A DNA stretch of 23,480 nt from IMG/VR virus record IMGVR_UViG_3300021356_000170, positions 1 through 23,480 of that record, one strand, 5' to 3'. The DNA is from a virus. A program made the position numbers and the translations under genes. Shown here one piece after another: positions 1,032 to 23,480 of the stretch. The notes beneath the pieces are model-generated. The model worked only from the letters and a program-made list of their open reading frames with translations. It had not been told where the DNA came from and did no database searches. Each line of letters starts with the position of its first letter. Positions within the stretch are counted from its first letter, which is position 1.

Positions 1032-1458
1032 AGTAGTCTTTTCGGAAGTATCTGCTGAGGATGTTACTATTGTAGTATTTGGGTTCTCCTGTGTCAAGGG
1101 ATTCTGTAAGGACTCCGTTGATGAAGAGTTGTCTGGTTTCTTCAAAATTAGTTTTGCCCTTCGTCTTATGAACACTGATAATAGTTCTGCTAAAATTTTG
1201 TTTGCCGAATTTGATAATGTCTTCCTTAAGCTCTGGACAAGAACCATAATACTTTTTCCAATCGGATTCTGATTTTACTTTTCGTTTTTTACCTCTAGGA
1301 GTTCTGAACTGCCAGAAGTATTTTCTACCGATGTATTGGCGATTATTTTTGAGATTTGTAATGAGGTAGACAAAACCGTACAGATCGTCAATATCCTCAG
1401 ATACAAAAGGTGATCCTTTAAAATACCATGGATTTTCATAATCACATTCGATACTCAT
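994..1458 (-). CDS. GIY-YIG-like endonuclease
   Basis: The 154-residue protein has the two strands that define GIY-YIG nucleases: GFVYLITN at residues 28-35 and QYIGRKY at 41-47. The Arg after YIG is in the expected catalytic position, and a later ETRQLF supplies a candidate metal-binding Glu. Similar free-standing proteins (KYYGS, FSRTIISVHKTKG) are common in T4-like cyanophages and are usually called putative homing endonucleases. It lies between nrdB and the tRNA cluster, both typical neighbourhoods for such genes. The start overlaps the preceding gene by 17 bases. The last residues (GNGNGCGDASP) are low-complexity and are read through the start of the next gene, so the original C-terminus may have been altered. 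Confidence 0.8.
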   Translation of the reverse strand: MSIECDYENPWYFKGSPFVSEDIDDLYGFVYLITNLKNNRQYIGRKYFWQFRTPRGKKRKVKSESDWKKYYGSCPELKEDIIKFGKQNFSRTIISVHKTKGKTNFEETRQLFINGVLTESLDTGEPKYYNSNILSRYFRKDYYGNGNGCGDASP

Positions 1459-1603
1459 CGATAGCGTCTAGCACCATATTGACGTATTTATGTGCTAAAC
1501 CTCTGGCTTCTTCACCGTACTTATTTTCTTCCCAGTAGAGTTCATTTTTAATTTTCTCTACTCTTGTTCTAATCTCCGCAACTGTAATTTGATTACGTGG
1601 CAT
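1442..1603 (-). CDS. Small conserved hypothetical protein
   Basis: The 53-residue protein starts MPRNQITVAEIRTRVEKIKN and ends DAIDEYRM; it appears fully helical and charged. I recall cyanophage proteins beginning MPRNQITV, which supports the ATG at 1603 over the TTG-initiated longer frame reaching 1639. It follows nrdB after a short gap filled by a hairpin whose loop side holds the only Shine-Dalgarno-like sequence (GGGGAG). Its end overlaps the GIY-YIG start by 17 bases. Function unknown. Confidence 0.75.
   Translation of the reverse strand: MPRNQITVAEIRTRVEKIKNELYWEENKYGEEARGLAHKYVNMVLDAIDEYRM
1485..1492 (-). promoter_or_regulatory. Candidate T4-type late promoter (CATAAATA)
   Basis: CATAAATA on the minus strand matches the NATAAATA form of T4-like late promoters and ends 26 bases before the GIY-YIG start codon. 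It lies inside coding sequence (codons for H-K-Y), so it may be a chance match; the spacing is the only support. Confidence 0.3.
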
Positions 1604-1627
1604 ATAAGGGGATATTACTCCCCTTAT
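1604..1627 (-). promoter_or_regulatory. Perfect hairpin directly before the start codon
   Basis: ATAAGGGG and CCCCTTAT form a perfect 8-bp stem with an 8-base loop (AGTAATAT) that ends at the base before the ATG at 1603. The candidate Shine-Dalgarno GGGGAG is mostly in the 5' arm. There is no T-run after it, so it is not an ordinary terminator. A role in controlling translation, or in stabilising the nrdB 3' end, is inferred. Confidence 0.55.
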
Positions 1628-1639
1628 GTATAGCAACAA

Positions 1640-2770
1640 TCAGAGTTGAAAACCACTGAATGTGTCCTTTTTCACATCTTGCTTGATACCACCAACCACA
1701 TAGGACTCTACTTCAGTCTCCTGAGGGGCAACCTGAAGTCCCTTAGAGGAGATCCAATGCTGCGTCCAGGGCAGAGGGTTAGCAGATGCGGGAATATCAT
1801 ACTGTGGTTTCAGTCCGATTGCTTTCAGACGACGATTAGCAATCCACTCAACATATTGCTGAAGAAGTTTGTCATTAAGTCCGATCATTGAACCATCCTT
1901 GAACAGATAGTCTGCCCACTTCTTCTCTTCGTTGACAGCACGATCAAACATCTTATAAGTCCACTCTTCTTCTTCCTTCATGATCTGCTTCATTTCAGGA
2001 TCATCACCTGCTCTCCACTTGTTCAGAATATTCTGAGTAATTGCTAGGTGTTGGTTTTCGTCTCTTGCGATAAGAGAGATGACTTTAGCTGATCCTTCCA
2101 TAAGCTTAAGTTCACCAAAGGCGAAACTACAAGCAAAACTAACGTAGAACCGAATACCTTCAAGAATGTTAACGTTTGCGACTGCTCTGTAGAGTCTACG
2201 CTTGACATCTTTGATCTCCCATTGTGCGGTAGGTGAATCTCTGAAATCTTTCTCCCACATATGTCCGTTGCCCCAGGTTTGAGCACCGTTGATGAAATCA
2301 TCATATGCTTCTGTAACGCTGCTAGCACGCTCCAGAATACGCTTGTCGGTGACGATCTTATCGAATACCTCTGAGGGATCCGCATAGACGTTCTTGATGA
2401 TGTAGGTGTAGGAACGACTATGAATCATTTCCATGAATCCCCACACTTCCATACATGCTTCCAACTCAGGAAGAGAGCAGTAAGGAATGAATGCCATTCC
2501 AGGCCCTCTACCCTGAATTGAGTCAAGCATGATCTGATACTTCAGATTAGAAGTGTAGATATGCTTCTGCTCCGGACGAAGAGTTTGATAGTCCCCACGA
2601 TCTTTCTGTAGAGACACCTCTTCGGGACGCCAAAAATATCCAAGTTGTTGGGTAGTCAGTTTATCAAAAACTGGATACTTATAGGAATCGTACCTCTGGA
2701 CTCCCAGAGGTTTTCCAAAAAACATTGGTTGCTTTTTGGTATCTACTTGTTCTGTGTTAAAGACAGTCAT
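1640..2770 (-). CDS. nrdB: Ribonucleotide reductase class I, small (beta) subunit
   Basis: NrdB holds the di-iron tyrosyl-radical cofactor that NrdA needs to reduce ribonucleoside diphosphates. From the ATG at 2770 the protein has 376 residues, essentially the E. coli length. The cofactor residues fall at nearly E. coli positions: D83 (MLDSIQGR), E114 and H117 (FMEMIHS), radical Tyr at 121 (SRSYTYI), and a later ENQH pair. The C-terminus ends GFQL, like the peptide that docks onto NrdA. A longer form starting at GTG 2830, preceded by a GGAGGGAG-like site inside nrdA, is possible; the residue numbering favours the ATG. It lies 40 bases downstream of nrdA and is co-transcribed. No intron is seen, unlike T4 nrdB. 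Confidence 0.96.
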   Translation of the reverse strand: MTVFNTEQVDTKKQPMFFGKPLGVQRYDSYKYPVFDKLTTQQLGYFWRPEEVSLQKDRGDYQTLRPEQKHIYTSNLKYQIMLDSIQGRGPGMAFIPYCSLPELEACMEVWGFMEMIHSRSYTYIIKNVYADPSEVFDKIVTDKRILERASSVTEAYDDFINGAQTWGNGHMWEKDFRDSPTAQWEIKDVKRRLYRAVANVNILEGIRFYVSFACSFAFGELKLMEGSAKVISLIARDENQHLAITQNILNKWRAGDDPEMKQIMKEEEEWTYKMFDRAVNEEKKWADYLFKDGSMIGLNDKLLQQYVEWIANRRLKAIGLKPQYDIPASANPLPWTQHWISSKGLQVAPQETEVESYVVGGIKQDVKKDTFSGFQL

Positions 2771-2810
2771 TCCTTTGACTTCTGTCTTTTTGTCGTCCAC
2801 GGATGAAACC

Positions 2811-5108
2811 TTAAACTGCACAGGATTCACACTCTCCCTCCTCGGCTTGTTCTAATTCTTGCAAGATACTATTCAGTTTTTCTTTGTCGTCCTCTACTTC
2901 GTCAGACTTTAAATCATTTGTATTCTGGTAGTAAGAGGTTTTCCAACCGTACTTATATGTAGTCAAAAAGTCTTGTGCCATGATGGACACTGGGACTTCA
3001 TTGTCAGGATAATTTTCTGGGTTGTAACTCCAGTTACCAGAAATTGCTTGATCAAAGAACTTTTGCATCACAGCAACAACATTAATATAACCCCTATTGT
3101 CAGGCATATCCCACAAAAGGGTGTAATTATTTTTAAGAGTCGCGTAAGACGGGACGATCTGTTTAAGCGGGCCCTTCTTGCTCTTCTTAACGGACAAATA
3201 GTCTCTAGGTGGCTCGATTCCATTTGTTGCGTTTGACACAACGGAACTGCTCTCTGATGGCATCTGAGCAGACAATGTTGAGTGCCGTAAACCGTGGGTG
3301 GAGATAGACTCTCTAAGACTTTCCCAATCATGTGCTAATTCTTGACTAGAAATTTCATCAACATCTTTCTTGTAAGTATCGATAGGAAGAATACCGTCTG
3401 CATACTTAGTGCGTCCAAAGTATTCACAGTGTCCCTTTTCCTTAGCAAGTTGATTAGACGCCTTCAGAAGGTAATACTGGAAGGACTCAGCAAGTCCATG
3501 GACTGCATCCCATGCTTCTTGATCACCATAATTATATCCAAGTTTTGCCAAATAATGTGCCAAACCAATGAATCCAATACCAAGCGATCTACGCGCCCTT
3601 GTAGCGATTTCTGCTGCCTTTACAGGGTACTTCTGATAGTCAATCAGTTCTTCCAGTCCACGAACAGAAAGATCACAAAGATTCTCAAGTTCTTCATCAG
3701 ACTTGACTTTACCAACATTGATGGCAGACAGAATACAAAGTGCAATCTCACCATACTCATCATCAATATGATTCAGAGGATAGGTTGGAAGAGTGATTTC
3801 TTGGCAGAGATTAGACATCTCAACCTTATCTTTAAAGGAAGAATGGGAGTTACAGTGATCAATGTTCATGATATAGAGGCGTCCAGTCTCTGCACGCTCC
3901 TTCAGAAGATCAAGGATCAGTTTCTGTGCCCCGATAGTCTTTCTTGAAATAAACTCATTTCGTTCAAAACTAACATATAGATCATCGAACCTATCAGTAC
4001 CAAAAGCGTCATATAAACCTGGTACGTCATGCGGTGAGAAGAGGCTAATCTCTCCATCAGCGATGAAACGTTCGTAGAAAAGTTTTGAAATCTGGATGGA
4101 GTAGTCAAGTTTCCTTACGCGATTGTCCTCTGTACCTTTGTTGTTCTTCAGGACAATGATGTCTTCGATTTCTTGGTGCCAGATTGGGAAGTGGACAGTC
4201 GCTGATCCACCTCTAATGCCATTTTGTGTGCAGCATCTGACAGTTGCCTCAAACTTTTTGAGAAATGGGACAACGCCTGTGTGTTGAACTTCTCCACCTC
4301 GGATTTTACTGTTGATGCCACGGATTCTGCCTGCGTTGATACCGATTCCCGCCCTTTGTGCAACGTACCGGCCAATTGCCATATCAGAAGTAAAGATAGA
4401 ATCGAGGGTGTCATCAACATCAACAAGCACACAGCTAGCAAATTGTCGAAGTGGAGTTCGCACTCCTGCCATGATAGGTGTGGGAATGTTGATTTTGTGC
4501 TTTGAGATTGCGTCATAATACCTCTTGACGTAAGACATCCTTGTGTCTTTGGGATACTCTGCAAAAATAGTCAGAGCAATCATCATATACATGAACTGAG
4601 GAGTTTCATACACTCCACCAGTGCTACGATCCTGAACCAAATACTTATCTGCTACCTGGCGCAGTCCAGCATAGGTAAAAAGAAAATCACGGGTATGATC
4701 AATGTAAGAATTTGCTCTCGCAATTTCTTCCTTAGAATATTTAATGAAAATATCTTTGTCATACACTTCTTTTGCAGTGCAATCCATAATATGTGCCTCA
4801 AGATGAGGAAGTTCTCTCATCTTCCCATAGAGACTCTTACGAAGACTAAACAAAAGCAGACGTGCTGCCACGAACTGATAGTTAGGATGATCCAAATCAA
4901 TCAGATCAGAAGCAGAACGAATCAAAATTTCCTGAATTTCTGCTGTGGTGATGCCATCATAAAACTGAATACCAGAAGTCATCTCAACTTGACTAGCTGA
5001 CACACCTGCAAGTCCTTTGGTTGCTTCATCAACCATCAGATGCATTTTATCCAAATCAAGAGACTCAATTCTACCGTCTCGCTTTTTAACCTTAATACCG
5101 TTGCTCAT
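2811..5108 (-). CDS. nrdA: Ribonucleotide reductase class I, large (alpha) subunit
   Basis: The 765-residue catalytic subunit converts NDPs to dNDPs for phage DNA synthesis. It opens with an intact ATP-cone (KVKKRDGRIESLDLDKMH, residues 6-23), so allosteric ATP/dATP control is probably retained. The active site is complete: C226 (RQFASCVL), N433-x-C435-x-E437 (SNLCQE) and C458 (ALCILSA). The radical-transfer pair is Y726-Y727 (SYYQNTND). The redox-active C-terminal cysteines are C760 and C763 (CESC), closer together than the CxxxxC of E. coli. The start overlaps the primase stop (ATGA), and nrdB follows directly. The sequence aligns by eye with E. coli NrdA over its whole length. Confidence 0.97.
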   Translation of the reverse strand: MSNGIKVKKRDGRIESLDLDKMHLMVDEATKGLAGVSASQVEMTSGIQFYDGITTAEIQEILIRSASDLIDLDHPNYQFVAARLLLFSLRKSLYGKMRELPHLEAHIMDCTAKEVYDKDIFIKYSKEEIARANSYIDHTRDFLFTYAGLRQVADKYLVQDRSTGGVYETPQFMYMMIALTIFAEYPKDTRMSYVKRYYDAISKHKINIPTPIMAGVRTPLRQFASCVLVDVDDTLDSIFTSDMAIGRYVAQRAGIGINAGRIRGINSKIRGGEVQHTGVVPFLKKFEATVRCCTQNGIRGGSATVHFPIWHQEIEDIIVLKNNKGTEDNRVRKLDYSIQISKLFYERFIADGEISLFSPHDVPGLYDAFGTDRFDDLYVSFERNEFISRKTIGAQKLILDLLKERAETGRLYIMNIDHCNSHSSFKDKVEMSNLCQEITLPTYPLNHIDDEYGEIALCILSAINVGKVKSDEELENLCDLSVRGLEELIDYQKYPVKAAEIATRARRSLGIGFIGLAHYLAKLGYNYGDQEAWDAVHGLAESFQYYLLKASNQLAKEKGHCEYFGRTKYADGILPIDTYKKDVDEISSQELAHDWESLRESISTHGLRHSTLSAQMPSESSSVVSNATNGIEPPRDYLSVKKSKKGPLKQIVPSYATLKNNYTLLWDMPDNRGYINVVAVMQKFFDQAISGNWSYNPENYPDNEVPVSIMAQDFLTTYKYGWKTSYYQNTNDLKSDEVEDDKEKLNSILQELEQAEEGECESCAV

Positions 5109-16828: not shown

Positions 16829-19326
16829 TATCCAAAGAAGAGTTCAAGGTTTACAGTTTTTTCCACGCTCCATCCAATAGCATCAAGGATGGCTTTTAGA
16901 GGTTCAAGGAATGACTTCTCAAATTGTAAGTCGTAATCAACGTACTTGTCAAGATTCAATTCTCTAGGAAAGTCTTGAATAAATGAGATGACATTCTCAT
17001 GAATGTGATTTGGTTTTTTCAGATAGCAGAACTTAATCTTCTCACCATTCTGAATAAGAGAATACTTAGCATCAAGTTTTTTCTCTTTGATGTAATGATT
17101 GTATAAAAGTGCGCCTCTAGCATGGATGGGTGTCCCTTTGGCATAGATGCTTGCGTGGGACTTATATTTTACAACATCAGAAACAGAGCGTGGAAAAGAA
17201 ACTTCCTCAGGGGGCAACTTCTTAAACTCTTCACGTTTAGAATCGATGAACTTAATCATTTCATCTTCAGAGCCAGTCATCAGAATCTTAAATGCATCTT
17301 TTAACATCTGGCGACAGGGAGCAGGAGTGGATGATTTGACAGATTCAATACCCATCACCTTCAGTTTAGGCTCTTCATAACGAACACCTTCACTGTCCCA
17401 TACGTTGAGAATATATCGCTTCTTAGCAGTCCAGATACCACGATCAGCGATATTCTCACGCTTCATTTGCATCTTCTGATCATACGCCGATACATACGTC
17501 GCGAGGTTGCTATAACATTCGTCGATGTACGGTTCCAGTTTGTCACGACAAACCATATCAAGTAACTCCACAACCTTTGCTTTGTCGCTAGAGCGATTAG
17601 CAAGAAATTTATCAACAACAGGTCCAAGATTAAGATAAATTGAGTCTGTGTCGGATGCAATTACGTAATCCTCTTTCTCTGTTTTTAACAGATTATTTAG
17701 ATATTCATTCATCTTCTGCTCAATCCAACGGATTGAAACCTGTCCAGACAAAGTGATCGCTTCTGCGTTCTCTAGTTTGTAATACCTGAAGTATTGATTA
17801 CCAATAGCACCATAAGCAGAGTTAAGAGAAATCTTCTTCGCCATTTGAATGTTGTTACATCGGGCGATTTCCTTTTCAAGTGCTTTAGTAGGCGTCTTCT
17901 CATACTGCTGCTTGGCAGCAAGCATTCGCTTTTTGAAGACAACACGATCTCCATACATCTTCTCCATCAACTCAGGCAGGAACCCACGGACATCTTTGCG
18001 ATACATTGCACCATTAGCACAAATCGCATTATCCTTGTAGAGTTCAAAATTTATCTCTTCATTAAGTATTTTATCAACGGTAACTGTGGGATGTCTCTCA
18101 TCCAAGAGCGTCTCTGGGGAGATATTATACTGCATAATAAGATGAGGATAAAGGCTGTTGAGATCAAAACTGACAACCCAATCATACTTTCCCGGAATCG
18201 GTTCCTTAACATAAGCACCTGCGTACTTTTCGTTCTTGTCCGTCTGGCGTTTCTGAGGAATGACAATATCCCTCTTCTTTAGATAGTTATAGATGATGTT
18301 GTCCCACATGCGAACTTGGTAGAACACATCGTTATAATTCACCTTAGCATCATAAGCCATAGTTAGAGCAAGTTCGATAAGTTTCATCTTATCTTCCAAC
18401 CTGTCAACCAGTTCTACGTCAACGATGTTGTATTCAATAAACTTCTGCCATCCGTTTGTGTAGAAGTCCTTGAACGTATCATATTCAGAGTGATCAAGTT
18501 TCTTCTGCCCCAGTTCTACACTGGCAATGTAATCTAGGCGATATGATTCCTGTGCCTTGTAAGTAAACTTCTTATACAGATCAAGATAATCTAGTTGAGT
18601 GACGCCACCAACATCAAAGATGATGTGCTTACGTCCCTGAATATACATTTCACTTTCACTCACCAGTCCCCAAGGCGAGAAGCGTTTCATCAGTTTCTCT
18701 CCAAGCACCCTGTTGAGGCGCTTACAGATGTACGGGATATCGAACAATTGAATGTTCCAACCTGTGATGACATCAGGTACATCTTGCATCCAATGGTTGA
18801 TGAAACTATTCAGAAGACTGTGCTCATCAACACAATGATGATAAGTAACGTTCTTTTGTTTGTTGATGAATGGTTTTACACCCCAAGTGATAATCTTCTT
18901 AGAGGTGTAATCTTGAATAGTGATTGCCAGAATCTCTTCTGATGCAGATTCTACATCAGGGAATCCTTTTTCAGCAGTAGTCTCAATATCAAGTGTCACC
19001 AATTTGATTTTACTGATGTCAAACTTGACTTCATCCTGAGGATACTTCTCAGAGATATATTGATAGATGTACCGATCATTACCGTAGATGGCAAAACCAT
19101 CTACATCTTGATACTTCTTATAGAACTCACGACAATCACGAACCTGTCCAGGTTGAATAGGTTCTACACTCTCACCATCCAGCGTTTTGTACTTGGTTTC
19201 TCTTTTACTTTTGACGAAAAGAGTAGGGCAGAATTCACTGTCCCGAATCTCAAATCTCTTTCCGTCTTCAACTCCACGAACCAAAAACTGATTACCGATC
19301 AGCTGAACGTTGGTGTAAAATTTCAT
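16828..19326 (-). CDS. 43: Family B DNA polymerase (T4 gp43-like)
   Basis: The replicative polymerase has a 3'-5' proofreading domain and an 832-residue length in the cyanophage range. Exonuclease motifs: TLDIET with D113/E115, GWNIQLFDIPY with D196, YNIVD with D303. Polymerase motifs: A DLNSLYP (D388), B KKISLNSAYGAIGN (497-510), C SDTDS (D559/D561). The C-terminus VNLELFFG looks like a sliding-clamp (gp45) binding peptide. It is intact, with no intein or split, unlike polymerase genes of some T4-like phages. Its ATG overlaps the preceding stop (ATGA), and uvsX begins in its stop codon. Confidence 0.97.
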   Translation of the reverse strand: MKFYTNVQLIGNQFLVRGVEDGKRFEIRDSEFCPTLFVKSKRETKYKTLDGESVEPIQPGQVRDCREFYKKYQDVDGFAIYGNDRYIYQYISEKYPQDEVKFDISKIKLVTLDIETTAEKGFPDVESASEEILAITIQDYTSKKIITWGVKPFINKQKNVTYHHCVDEHSLLNSFINHWMQDVPDVITGWNIQLFDIPYICKRLNRVLGEKLMKRFSPWGLVSESEMYIQGRKHIIFDVGGVTQLDYLDLYKKFTYKAQESYRLDYIASVELGQKKLDHSEYDTFKDFYTNGWQKFIEYNIVDVELVDRLEDKMKLIELALTMAYDAKVNYNDVFYQVRMWDNIIYNYLKKRDIVIPQKRQTDKNEKYAGAYVKEPIPGKYDWVVSFDLNSLYPHLIMQYNISPETLLDERHPTVTVDKILNEEINFELYKDNAICANGAMYRKDVRGFLPELMEKMYGDRVVFKKRMLAAKQQYEKTPTKALEKEIARCNNIQMAKKISLNSAYGAIGNQYFRYYKLENAEAITLSGQVSIRWIEQKMNEYLNNLLKTEKEDYVIASDTDSIYLNLGPVVDKFLANRSSDKAKVVELLDMVCRDKLEPYIDECYSNLATYVSAYDQKMQMKRENIADRGIWTAKKRYILNVWDSEGVRYEEPKLKVMGIESVKSSTPAPCRQMLKDAFKILMTGSEDEMIKFIDSKREEFKKLPPEEVSFPRSVSDVVKYKSHASIYAKGTPIHARGALLYNHYIKEKKLDAKYSLIQNGEKIKFCYLKKPNHIHENVISFIQDFPRELNLDKYVDYDLQFEKSFLEPLKAILDAIGWSVEKTVNLELFFG

Positions 19327-19580
19327 TTAGTCTGTTCTAAGTATTTTTCAAGCAGTGTTGGCATAGGATCAGCAAGTGTGATGATCTTATCCGAACTAAT
19401 CATAAAAGTGTCTTGCATCGTGTGATCCATCATCCAAGGAGCAAGGTTGTTACTTTCCCAAATCTCCATAGGATTGATCAACTTGCAATCTGGTTCACCA
19501 ATTTCAGCACCTACCTCTTCAATTTCACTGATCAGTCTCTCGCTGTTCGTCAGCAGAATCACCTTCACTATCTTGTCCAT
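19323..19580 (-). CDS. Small conserved protein, paralogue of upstream gene
   Basis: The 85-residue protein (MDKIVKVILLTNSERLISEI) has two beta-like strands at the start and a C-terminal PWMMDHTMQDTFMISSDKII, then LADPMPTLLEKYLE. Its layout parallels that of the 120-residue protein encoded just upstream (V-K-x-x-L-L opening, mid PW, closing DP/EP then KYLE/MYLE), suggesting an old duplication. The short all-beta pattern resembles LSm/Hfq-like folds, but that is only a guess. It overlaps the upstream gene by 56 bases and gene 43 by an ATGA. A cyanophage-typical gene of unknown function next to the polymerase. Confidence 0.8.
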   Translation of the reverse strand: MDKIVKVILLTNSERLISEIEEVGAEIGEPDCKLINPMEIWESNNLAPWMMDHTMQDTFMISSDKIITLADPMPTLLEKYLEQTK

Positions 19581-19887
19581 TTCCGACTACATCCTCCAAA
19601 TACATTTCTTTGAGTTTTTGTTTAGGTTCAACGATTGTTACCACCCAGTCTACAGGAAGGGGGATAACACTGTCTTCTGCAAGGGGACACCAGGGATACA
19701 TTGAAACATTAAACGCTGCCTTTTTATCTCCTTCTTCCTGCTGCTCAGCATTCAGAATCTTGACAACACAGGGTTTATCAAGAAAATATCCAAGAACTTT
19801 CTTGTCTGCGTCTTCACCCACTGCCATCTCACTTACATCAGCAATCACGTCCTCACCGGACTTCAGCAGCAAAAGTTTTACAGTCAT
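19525..19887 (-). CDS. Small conserved protein, first gene after hsp20
   Basis: The 120-residue protein begins MTVKLLLLKSGEDVIADVSE, then YFLDKPCVVKIL, MYPWCPLAEDSVIPLPVDWV and VTIVEPKQKLKEMYLEDV, with an acidic disordered tail. I recall this family in T4-like cyanophages between hsp20 and gene 43. The predicted short beta strands and glycine turn after L-L-L-K-S-G recall LSm-type small barrels; no function is known. AGGAGG sits 12 bases before the ATG, farther than usual. A promoter-like sequence overlapping the hsp20 terminator lies just upstream, making this the first gene of the 43-uvsX-41 unit. Confidence 0.8.
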   Translation of the reverse strand: MTVKLLLLKSGEDVIADVSEMAVGEDADKKVLGYFLDKPCVVKILNAEQQEEGDKKAAFNVSMYPWCPLAEDSVIPLPVDWVVTIVEPKQKLKEMYLEDVVGNGQDSEGDSADEQRETDQ

Positions 19888-20525: not shown

Positions 20526-20969
20526 TTATTCGGTTTGTTGGGCATTCTCTTTGCCTTTCTTACCAATGTTGTATTTCTGTTCAAGAATCCACTCACCCTT
20601 GTCCTTATAAGAAAGAACTTTGATTTGATTCAGAGGAGCAATGTCAAGAACAGTATCTTCATCAACGATAGAGATCAATCCCCAATCAGAAAGCAGACGA
20701 ACAATACGGTTACGGCGCTGAACATCGTTAATAGAAAGATTAGCGTGCTTTCCATCCAGCGCAAACAATTCCTTAAAATGGACAATATAATACTTGCCCT
20801 GCTTGTGAAGAATATGACAAGACTGATAAAGTTTCTTCTCTTTCCTAGAAGCAACTCCAATTCTCGTCAGTGTCTCTCTTACCTTTAGGAAATCATCTGG
20901 TTCATTAAGTAGGACTTCGATCATCTGATCCTGAGTCCAGTGATACTGAGGTTCCACAGTATTACTCAT
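20526..20969 (-). CDS. regA: RegA translational repressor
   Basis: RegA binds the start regions of phage early mRNAs (in T4 including genes 44 and 45) and blocks translation. The 147-residue protein matches T4 RegA by eye: EPDDFLKVRETLTRIG, LYQSCHILHKQGKYYIVHFKE, RRNRIVRLLSDWGLI and EWILEQKYNIG. Compared with T4 there is a 15-residue N-terminal extension (MSNTVEPQYHWTQDQ); the ATG at 20969 overlaps the gene 62 stop (ATGA), which supports it, while M16 would give the T4-like start. The C-terminal tail is charged and about 10 residues longer than in T4. Confidence 0.94.
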   Translation of the reverse strand: MSNTVEPQYHWTQDQMIEVLLNEPDDFLKVRETLTRIGVASRKEKKLYQSCHILHKQGKYYIVHFKELFALDGKHANLSINDVQRRNRIVRLLSDWGLISIVDEDTVLDIAPLNQIKVLSYKDKGEWILEQKYNIGKKGKENAQQTE

Positions 20970-21334
20970 TTTGTTCCTCCAACGTCAAGTCGTTTTTTAA
21001 TAAAGTTAATCTGTTCTTGTGTCAGGATTTTCAGAGCTTGACATGCCTTCTCATTACTATAACCATAGTATTGTTTGACACTTTCGAGATCCGTGACTTT
21101 ATCCTTACGGAGCCAGGGAGAAAATCTCTTCTTTTTCCTCAGACTATTTAGATAAAATTTATATTGCATATCCTTATCAAGAAAGTGATTCTTGTTCATC
21201 TCATTAGCGAACAACACACAATCAATGTGTCCAGATAAGCAGCGATTGACGATATATGGTGGATAGGACTTCATGTCCTCGGACAAATCTTCTTTTGTAA
21301 AGTTAATTGAGTTCAACCAATCTTTGAGTTCCAT
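20966..21334 (-). CDS. 62: Clamp loader small subunit (T4 gp62-like)
   Basis: Gp62 joins four gp44 subunits to load the gp45 sliding clamp onto primed DNA. The 122-residue protein resembles remembered cyanophage gp62 sequences: LKDWLNSINFTKEDL, YPPYIVNRCLSGHID, MQYKFYLNSLRKKKRFSPW, VKQYYGYSNEKA. It is much shorter than T4 gp62 (187 residues), as in other cyanophages. Its ATG shares a base with the stop of the DUF4338-like gene (TAATG). In T4, gene 62 instead follows gene 44 directly, with overlapping stop and start. Confidence 0.9.
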   Translation of the reverse strand: MELKDWLNSINFTKEDLSEDMKSYPPYIVNRCLSGHIDCVLFANEMNKNHFLDKDMQYKFYLNSLRKKKRFSPWLRKDKVTDLESVKQYYGYSNEKACQALKILTQEQINFIKKRLDVGGTK

Positions 21335-22398
21335 TATCTAATGATCTCCATATTTTCTGTAGATCCCCAAATCTCAAGTTCAGTTCTTACTCTGTCTTCA
21401 GACTTAAGTTTTTCAAAACGCTTGGATGCTTTCTTTTTCCACCAGGTGATTGCTTCCTCAGAAGTATGGCGGAAATCTCCAAGATAATATCTTTTCTTTT
21501 CTGTGAGAGACATTGCGTGATCAATACAATTATTGAACTGCTTTAGTTTGTCATCATCCTTCAAAGAGTTCCTAATAATAGAAATCATCTTGACTTGAAT
21601 CTTCAGTTTCTTTGAGGACTTATCAGCAGATATCAAACGCTCACCGCCATTACGATCGTTGAACCACCAGAAGAAGTCTCTGAATACATCATCATGAAAC
21701 AGCGGCAAGAACTTACTTTCAGTGTCTCCGATGTGCCTCAGGAACGGTTTGAGTCCATCGTACATTGATACACCCTTAGTGCTTCCGTAGAGAGAAGTAG
21801 TCTCAAAGTATTTGAGATCTGTTCCATACTTCTCATCAAACTGTTGCTTCAGTTCTTTTGATGATGCTAGAAGTGCAAGCAACTTACCACCGAGATAATT
21901 GTATCCGAAAGGTTGAGTAGGTACGATATTGAAACCCATAACGAAATGAGCATTAATATCACCAAGAGACTTGACTTCACCAAAGTAATTATTGCGGGGT
22001 TTGCTATTAATAGTAGGTGAACCAAACCTCACAACACCAATAACCTTGTCTGTGTTTGTTTCAACTACAATCCACTTATGTGTCCTACCAGGAATTGCTT
22101 CTTCAATAGGATTAGATGCAGTCAAATTCAGTGTCTCTGAATAGAGCCACTGATTATACTTTGAACGACTTTTTGCATCAGTGTCAACAACATGAACTTC
22201 AAAATTCATGTCATTGGGGTGCATATCAAACTTGTCAAACATATCCGAATCTGCACCAAAACCAGGAAGATATCCTGATCTGTTCTCACCTCTATCTTCC
22301 TTGATGTGCCTTAGATAATCATCAATACGATTGAACTGAGTATAATAATCAATAAATTTATCTGCGGCATAAACCGCATCACTCTCAGTCAGTATCAT
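21334..22398 (-). CDS. DUF4338/DruA-like protein inside the clamp-loader operon
   Basis: The 354-residue protein has a central region matching what I remember of the DUF4338 family (DruA of the Druantia anti-phage system). WIVVETNTDKVIGVVRFGSP is followed by the phrase around FGYNYLGGKLLALLASSKEL, then a KYGTDLKYFETTSLYG segment and LKPFLRHIGDT. A charged helical C-terminus (RYYLGDFRHTSEEAITWWKK) follows. In DruA proteins these blocks occur in the same order, but no enzymatic activity is firmly known to me. It lies between genes 44 and 62, which are normally adjacent. The start overlaps the upstream small gene by 14 bases and the stop shares a base with gene 62. Family assignment by eye; a profile search is needed to settle it. 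Confidence 0.7.
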   Translation of the reverse strand: MILTESDAVYAADKFIDYYTQFNRIDDYLRHIKEDRGENRSGYLPGFGADSDMFDKFDMHPNDMNFEVHVVDTDAKSRSKYNQWLYSETLNLTASNPIEEAIPGRTHKWIVVETNTDKVIGVVRFGSPTINSKPRNNYFGEVKSLGDINAHFVMGFNIVPTQPFGYNYLGGKLLALLASSKELKQQFDEKYGTDLKYFETTSLYGSTKGVSMYDGLKPFLRHIGDTESKFLPLFHDDVFRDFFWWFNDRNGGERLISADKSSKKLKIQVKMISIIRNSLKDDDKLKQFNNCIDHAMSLTEKKRYYLGDFRHTSEEAITWWKKKASKRFEKLKSEDRVRTELEIWGSTENMEIIR

Positions 22399-22573
22399 TT
22401 AAGTTAGCGATATACTCATAAATTAATTTCCACCCAAACTCATAAGTATCTCCATTCTCATCTTGTAGATAGAAAGGAATATTTGGGTGCCAGTATTTAG
22501 CACGATAGTAATTATTGACGACTTCATAGTCATCATCAATACATCTTTCTCGTTCTAATTCCTGCTCTGTCAT
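22385..22573 (-). CDS. Small unknown protein between HNH and DUF4338-like genes
   Basis: The 62-residue acidic protein (MTEQELERERCIDDDYEVVN ... FGWKLIYEYIANLNDTD) is rich in aromatic residues in its middle (NYYRAKYWHPNIPFYL). I do not recognise it. Its ATG lies in the second copy of the gene 44 end repeat and stands in the same position relative to that repeat as the HNH start does to the first copy. Before the HNH insertion it was therefore probably coupled to the gene 44 stop. It overlaps the next gene by 14 bases. Confidence 0.65.
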   Translation of the reverse strand: MTEQELERERCIDDDYEVVNNYYRAKYWHPNIPFYLQDENGDTYEFGWKLIYEYIANLNDTD

Positions 22574-22586
22574 TTGAATTCACACT
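22570..22586 (-). repeat. Downstream copy of gene 44 end repeat
   Basis: AGTGTGAATTCAAATGA matches 16 of 17 bases of the copy at 23161-23177. Read in the gene 44 frame together with the preceding G it gives E-C-E-F-K-stop, identical to the gene 44 C-terminus with one synonymous change (GAA for GAG). It follows the HNH coding end and contains the next ATG. Confidence 0.85.
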
Positions 22587-23164
22587 CCATATTCAACTTT
22601 AAATTTCCAAATCATACGATTATTTAATCTGGCATTAGCCAAATGTTTAGCGATGTCACTAATTTTATGATTTGAAGACTTCATACGAGGAGTGATAAGA
22701 TCAAGATTTTGTCTTACCCACTCTGCTATGTTATTACCATTCCAAACTTTTCCGTTGCTTGTGTCGGTAATTTTATATGATTTAGGAGTAGCACAAGAAC
22801 CCACAACACCCTCCATATTCTCAATATGAGTTCCCCATTTTAGATTAGTGTAATGATTATTTCGATTGTTCTCATCTACATGCAGTATCTCTGTGTATTT
22901 GTGCGGATTTGGAACCCAAGTTTCTGCAACTAACCTATGAATATATTGAGTTATTTGTTTAACATATTTACCATTCTCATCTCTGATAGTAATATTGACA
23001 GAGAAATATTGTTTTTCCGGGTATTTGGGATGTCCACGTAAAAATGGTTTTATAAAAACTAAACCATCTTCATTAATAGGCATTCGTTCGTTCTTTACAG
23101 GAAGACGATATACATCGCCATCTTGAGTTACAAAATAACGCGAATGTTTTGGGTGCTGTTTCAT
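22580..23164 (-). CDS. HNH homing endonuclease
   Basis: The 194-residue protein has an HNH_3-type core: IHRLVAETWVPNP (75-87), then LHVDENNRNNHYTNLKWGTH (94-113), with H95, D97 and N107 in the expected arrangement and HIEN closing the motif. The C-terminal region (YKITDTSNGKVWNGNNIAEW) resembles the NUMOD1-type DNA-binding repeats often joined to such nucleases. The start ATG overlaps the gene 44 stop (ATGA). A direct repeat of the gene 44 end on both sides marks it as an inserted free-standing homing gene. It is intact, so possibly active. Confidence 0.9.
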   Translation of the reverse strand: MKQHPKHSRYFVTQDGDVYRLPVKNERMPINEDGLVFIKPFLRGHPKYPEKQYFSVNITIRDENGKYVKQITQYIHRLVAETWVPNPHKYTEILHVDENNRNNHYTNLKWGTHIENMEGVVGSCATPKSYKITDTSNGKVWNGNNIAEWVRQNLDLITPRMKSSNHKISDIAKHLANARLNNRMIWKFKVEYGV

Positions 23165-23177
23165 TTGAACTCACACT
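23161..23177 (-). repeat. Upstream copy of gene 44 end repeat
   Basis: AGTGTGAGTTCAAATGA forms the last codons and stop of gene 44 plus the HNH start. It pairs with the copy at 22570-22586 (16 of 17 identical), giving direct repeats on both sides of the HNH gene. Confidence 0.85.
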
Positions 23178-23480
23178 CTACCATAATCTCAGTCAGACAA
23201 GCTAGAAGGTTTATTTCTTGATCCGCAACGAAGGCAATCTGATACTGATACTTAGCAATGATAAGCACAGCAGCAGGAATACTAGCGTTTGCCAAGGATG
23301 TATAAAGAGCATCGTAAATACGGCGGAGAAGTACGCCAGAATCATTATCCAAATTATCCACCACCCACTTCCGAACTTCAGGGAAGTTCTTTTGTTTAAG
23401 GTTTGAGATAAGGTTGTTGACTTTGACATCAGAAAACGTTGCCAGGATTCCAGCGTCAATCGCTCCACCCGACGAGTATC
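23161..23480 (-). CDS. 44: Clamp loader large subunit (T4 gp44-like), C-terminal part
   Basis: Gp44 is the AAA+ ATPase subunit of the clamp loader. Only the last 105 codons are present; the frame enters at the right window edge (YSSGGAIDAGILATF) and continues through VRKWVVDNLDNDSGVLLRRI, SIPAAVLIIAKYQYQ and DQEINLLACLTEIMVECEFK. This matches the C-terminal helical collar domain of cyanophage gp44 as I remember it, including the DQEIN and ECEFK end. The catalytic ATPase domain lies outside the window. Its stop overlaps the HNH gene start, whereas in T4 the next gene is 62. Confidence 0.9.
   Translation of the reverse strand, partial: YSSGGAIDAGILATFSDVKVNNLISNLKQKNFPEVRKWVVDNLDNDSGVLLRRIYDALYTSLANASIPAAVLIIAKYQYQIAFVADQEINLLACLTEIMVECEFK

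Follow-up and report, generated by a model that had tools for sequence, protein, structure and literature searches.

In a virus sequence of 23,480 nucleotides (IMG/VR record IMGVR_UViG_3300021356_000170; this 23.5-kb stretch, which is the record in full, is referred to here as the window), a gene of the DruA family (DUF4338) lies in the clamp-loader operon, between gp44 and gp62, a slot in which related phages carry a DNA methyltransferase (Dam). One gene is exchanged for the other in this slot, and they were never found in it together. On balance, we favor the proposal that the product, a stand-alone enzyme with a predicted GNAT fold, marks the DNA of the phage and takes the place of Dam methylation.

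The DruA-like gene and its distribution

The genes at this end of the window are arranged on the same strand in the order gp44, HNH endonuclease, 62-amino-acid ORF, DruA-like gene, gp62, and regA. The DruA-like gene therefore lies between gp44 and gp62, as had been stated in an earlier reading of the sequence alone. The features are as follows.

23161-23478 (-), gp44, clamp-loader large subunit, C-terminal part, cut off by the end of the contig; borders the slot upstream
22580-23164 (-), HNH endonuclease of 194 amino acids, probably homing, inserted in the gp44-gp62 slot
22385-22573 (-), ORF of 62 amino acids, function unknown, with a 14-base overlap with the start of the DruA-like gene
21334-22398 (-), DruA-family (DUF4338) protein of 354 amino acids, clade A, with a predicted GNAT fold; putative DNA-modification enzyme
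20966-21334 (-), gp62, clamp-loader small subunit; borders the slot downstream
20526-20969 (-), regA, translational repressor, next gene of the operon

The DruA-like ORF starts with ATG, and its stop codon overlaps the start codon of gp62 by one base (TAATG). When it was compared with relatives of 87 to 98% protein identity, dN/dS values of 0.035 to 0.066 were obtained, and the ORF is thus a real gene under purifying selection rather than a chance reading frame. Relatives of the 62-amino-acid ORF were found in slots with Dam, in slots with a DruA-like gene and in slots with neither, while relatives of the HNH endonuclease were present in two further slots of the survey, a Dam slot and a slot with neither gene. 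Two adjacent ORFs of 85 and 120 amino acids at 19323-19887 (-) of the window gave DUF6561-type matches, of which one exceeded the cut-off and the other did not, and small proteins resembling this pair were present in many gp44-gp62 slots.

The protein matched the DruA profile PF14236 over residues 59 to 199 (hmmscan; E=3e-11; 43.4 bits, the gathering score being 27), and no other Pfam family exceeded the cut-off for the 354-amino-acid protein. It also matched DruA in PADLOC (E=2.5e-8) and PHROG 19197, a family of unknown function (581 bits); no NCBIfam family was matched by it. Profile-profile alignment (hhalign) with the DruA proteins of Druantia type I, represented by three whose loci have a large DEAD/DEAH-box helicase close by, gave an E value of 6e-17 and a probability of 98.8 over 238 columns. 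The motifs GR-L..V, G..GSP.IN..PRN, LGGKLLA, TTSLYG..S.Y..LK, and GxT were paired in this order between the phage and Druantia proteins, in agreement with the sequence-only reading, which had described the gene as a DruA/DUF4338 relative with its conserved blocks in the DruA order. The residues common to all the aligned phage and Druantia proteins include G104, G121, R135, P163, G170-K172, S202, and Y213.

In a survey of other phages, the query matched 31 INPHARED records, nearly all of them from T4-like cyanophages; the others came from Pelagibacter phages and from two marine virus contigs without classification. In IMG/VR, a relative is encoded by at least 594 candidate stretches. The usual position of the gene in the isolates examined was between gp44 and gp62; it follows gp43 in HTVC008M and is near gp46/47 in S-B68, and in Pelagibacter phages the genes of a second clade, B (Mosig type), are found close to the gp47 region. 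In one marine virus contig (L153, positions 1457-3997) a clade A gene and a clade B gene are adjacent, and the pair adjoins genes resembling MazG and peptide deformylase.

The DruA-like genes of S-SM2 and S-SSM7 are listed as T4-GC 1216. According to the available text of the Phold paper (2026; PMC12774648), six Synechococcus phages have a DruA-like protein; these proteins (T4-GC 1216; S-PRM1 and others), recognised there by structure, correspond to the same gene. The presence of the gene in cyanophages is already published, hence it is not new, and the sequence-only reading overstated its novelty. The same available text assigns these proteins no function and mentions neither a slot exchange nor a connection with Dam, and the new element appears to be the exchange in the gp44-gp62 slot and the mutual exclusion of Dam and the DruA-like gene.

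Exchange with Dam in the gp44-gp62 slot

In related cyanophages without the DruA-like gene, such as Bellamy and S-RIM8, the slot carries a D12-class N6-adenine DNA methyltransferase, and Dam is carried by ~90% of the Synechococcus and 'Cyanophage' T4-like records. For a quantitative analysis of the slot, 223 loci were fetched by gp62 alone, blind to Dam and to the DruA-like gene, and 144 non-redundant gp44-gp62 intervals were classified. Dam (PF02086) was present in 72 intervals and the DruA-like gene in 53, whereas 19 contained neither and none contained both, as confirmed by profile HMMs. One or the other gene was therefore found in 125 of the 144 slots. If the two genes were independent, 26.5 intervals with both would be expected, against the 0 observed (Fisher p=2e-23, relatedness ignored).

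The exchange has occurred repeatedly. On a tree of gp44 plus gp62 comprising 128 loci, 20 changes between Dam and DruA were counted, 9 to 11 of them forced by well-supported (starred) branches, so that at least about 10 swaps took place. Among independent pairs, Dam and the DruA-like gene never changed in the same direction (median p=0.016 in a sign test). The other slot families accompanied both kinds of slot in similar proportions (24 DruA-like and 36 Dam slots in one case, 17 and 27 in another, and likewise for others); several genes can thus share a slot, and they reassort. Among the large slot families, mutual exclusion was limited to Dam and the DruA-like gene. A simple allelic explanation involving the whole slot is weakened by the finding of other slot genes with both kinds. 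Dam of cyanophages (PF02086) thus shares slot and operon with the DruA-like protein, and the same role is predicted for both, although their folds and chemistry are unrelated.

Slots containing a protein of 163 to 186 amino acids, whose family was unchecked, were observed in four loci of a deep-branching group (L394, L396, L404, and L435).

The exclusion was also observed beyond the slot. Slot-type Dam was absent from 15 records, from isolates or single cells, that contain the DruA-like gene; one of them, S-SCSM2R, encodes a D12 enzyme of 27% identity at another place in its genome. Similarly, Dam was absent from 14 DruA-like contigs of 10 to 224 kb, and PF14236 was absent from 13 Dam contigs. 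In S-B68, a gene in the gp62 position directly follows gp44 with nothing between them, the DruA-like gene is located elsewhere, and Dam is absent, so that the exclusion holds outside the slot in this phage, as it does in HTVC008M. In the latter, a 2OG-Fe(II) oxygenase, confirmed by Pfam, precedes gp62.

The two groups of genomes also differed in the avoidance of a tetramer. When 20-kb regions off the slot were compared, GGCC was the most discriminating of 136 tetramers between DruA-like and Dam genomes (p=8e-5), with median observed/expected ratios of 0.60 in 21 DruA-like genomes and 0.17 in 10 Dam genomes; the signal had been first noticed in the survey loci and was then checked on these separate genome regions. 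In 19 close pairs the values were 0.68 for DruA-like and 0.29 for Dam (pooled p=0.002), with GGCC ranking 9th of 136 in the paired test, and several DruA-like lineages still avoid GGCC; the stronger avoidance of GGCC by Dam phages is no more than a hint in favor of the proposed substitution. GGCC lacks adenine, and an adenine methyltransferase could therefore not mark it. For its part, a cyanobacterium methylates this sequence as GGm4CC (PMC6560206). GATC avoidance did not clearly separate the groups, and an RGCY-like avoidance signal, which was the first to be seen, may be partly a lineage effect.

Predicted fold and proposed function

The AlphaFold model of clade A, obtained from 52 relatives, showed a mean pLDDT of 86.7. 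Most of its top 50 PDB matches (Foldseek) were GNAT acyltransferases, with modest TM-scores, and the same was true of the top 50 matches of the clade B model; on these models, a fold of the GNAT superfamily is predicted for both clades. No solved relative was found to be significant by sequence search. DUF4338 has been called a GNAT domain in earlier work (NAR 2024; PMC10853773), in which a domain of this family, the same Pfam family as that of the phage protein, is fused to DndF in a bacterial system and is a predicted protein-targeting co-effector. The phage protein, in contrast, is not fused.

The significant matches among viral models (Foldseek) included giant-virus proteins, a Mom protein (E=1.2e-4), and a GNAT. 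The strongest of the viral structural matches include the uncharacterised giant-virus proteins A0A3G4ZXG3, A0A5K0UAJ3, and A0A3G4ZRA1 (Faunusvirus, Yasminevirus, and Dasosvirus), which suggest that the predicted fold extends to giant viruses. Mom of phage Mu and its relatives (PF25680) are also GNAT-fold enzymes used by phages, the fold of the phage DruA-like protein being that of a model. A sequence link to Mom was considered and rejected (hhalign, 0.3%; the Pfam Mom family, PF25680, was not matched by the window protein), and the solved Mu Mom (8bv8) was not among the 50 best PDB matches. Since sequence similarity was not found, the comparison with Mom is limited to the predicted fold and to phage use. 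By analogy with GNATs in general, we take Y213 as a candidate general acid and the GGKL loop as a candidate CoA-binding loop.

Because the DruA-like protein occupies the same slot as Dam and is never found there together with it, we infer that it may mark the phage's own DNA. The enzyme would be made together with the clamp loader and would act on newly replicated phage DNA, the predicted chemistry being, most likely, the transfer of an acyl-type group to a base. Phage DNA marked in this manner would escape recognition by host nucleases and be protected against restriction, and the enzyme would fill the role played in most related cyanophages by the Dam-type N6-adenine methyltransferase.

GNATs often acylate proteins, and the enzyme could instead modify a protein, such as the clamp loader, the host RNA polymerase or another host factor, and so aid takeover or replication. 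The GNAT fold predicted by the models of both clades and the location of the gene among replication proteins would be in accordance with this, and a phage GNAT, Rac of phiKMV, acetylates the host RNA polymerase (PMC7824862). However, protein acylation predicts neither exchange with a DNA methyltransferase nor exclusion of it, and the DruA family is also present in Druantia, a DNA-targeting defence. We therefore regard this explanation as unlikely.

It is also conceivable that the slot is simply a variable locus, at which recombination in gp44 and gp62 swaps one cassette for another, and that the functions of Dam and the DruA-like protein are unrelated. The conserved flanks, the many swaps on the backbone tree and the coming and going of other accessory genes would agree with such a scenario, and homologous recombination in gp44 and gp62, exchanging whole cassettes, can account for part of the exclusivity. 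Nevertheless, other slot genes occur on both backgrounds whereas Dam and the DruA-like gene never occur together, just these two account for so large a share of the slots, and their exclusion is maintained off the slot in S-B68 and HTVC008M, all of which makes a lack of functional relation quite unlikely.

Relation to Druantia and to the DruA family

Like DruA of Druantia type I, the phage protein contains GR-L, G..G-P, R[DN]..xG, GGKL, and S...Y, but it stands alone, without DruB-E partners, its C terminus is divergent, and it forms a separate branch of the family. The zinc domain of the DruE helicase (PF09369) was absent from the window and from 15 phage genomes with DruA-family genes, whereas it was found in a Druantia plasmid by the identical search, which served as the positive control. 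Instead of the DruE helicase and its partners, the neighbours of the gene are replication genes. In a tree of the family, unrooted, built by a quick method and with some long branches, phage clades A and B and stand-alone proteins from microbial contigs were placed on one side and the Druantia-type DruA proteins on the other, both sides being supported at 100*. Given the missing PF09369 and the separate sides of the tree, the phage gene is a member of the DruA family and not of a Druantia system.

These data also bear on the roles that the sequence-only reading had suggested. A role as decoy or inhibitor, in which a mimic of DruA poisons the Druantia of the host, would be in keeping with the homology between both proteins, but the most conserved residues are common to phages and Druantia, unlike what would be expected of a mere decoy, and the gene follows the clamp loader in an operon for replication, where a DNA methyltransferase can stand in its place; this possibility is very improbable. 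A weapon turned against competing phages, as part of a phage-borne Druantia-like defence, is hardly credible even though DruA is a component of a defence system, since the gene is alone and PF09369, readily found in the plasmid control, is lacking in the window and the 15 phage genomes. As for the third suggestion, an ancestral nucleic-acid enzyme, a nucleic-acid enzyme is our best reading, whereas its being the ancestor of DruA was not sustained, the tree being unrooted.

In Druantia type II, a DNA methyltransferase (DruM) is present where type I has DruA. This difference between the Druantia types would be a second example of the exchange seen in the phages. DruM is required in type II (PADLOC; PMC8565338), and DruA of type I has been listed as a protein of unknown role (PMC7251935). 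It is tempting to speculate, with more doubt than confidence, that the DruA family consists of unrecognised DNA base-modifying GNATs, which would be the Dam replacement of the phages and, in Druantia, a self-marking component that spares host DNA. A phage relative that replaces a DNA methyltransferase provides a direct, testable hypothesis for the DruA family as a whole. It may also be a sign that viruses abundant in the ocean have a DNA modification not yet described.

No plasmid homologues of the window protein were found; clade B queries gave weak plasmid matches, several of them with Druantia-type loci. When microbial genome contigs were searched, most of the sequences obtained fell among the phage proteins on the tree, and there were a few stand-alone genes besides. 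Two stand-alone DruA-like genes in microbial contigs (L258 and L260) lie near integrase- and resolvase-like genes, and the family may thus also travel on mobile elements. A 78%-identical copy of cyanophage type was observed in the chromosome of an archaeal MAG (L247; CP070751.1, Thermoplasmata), where it is probably the result of a mis-assembly or of a mis-binned phage.
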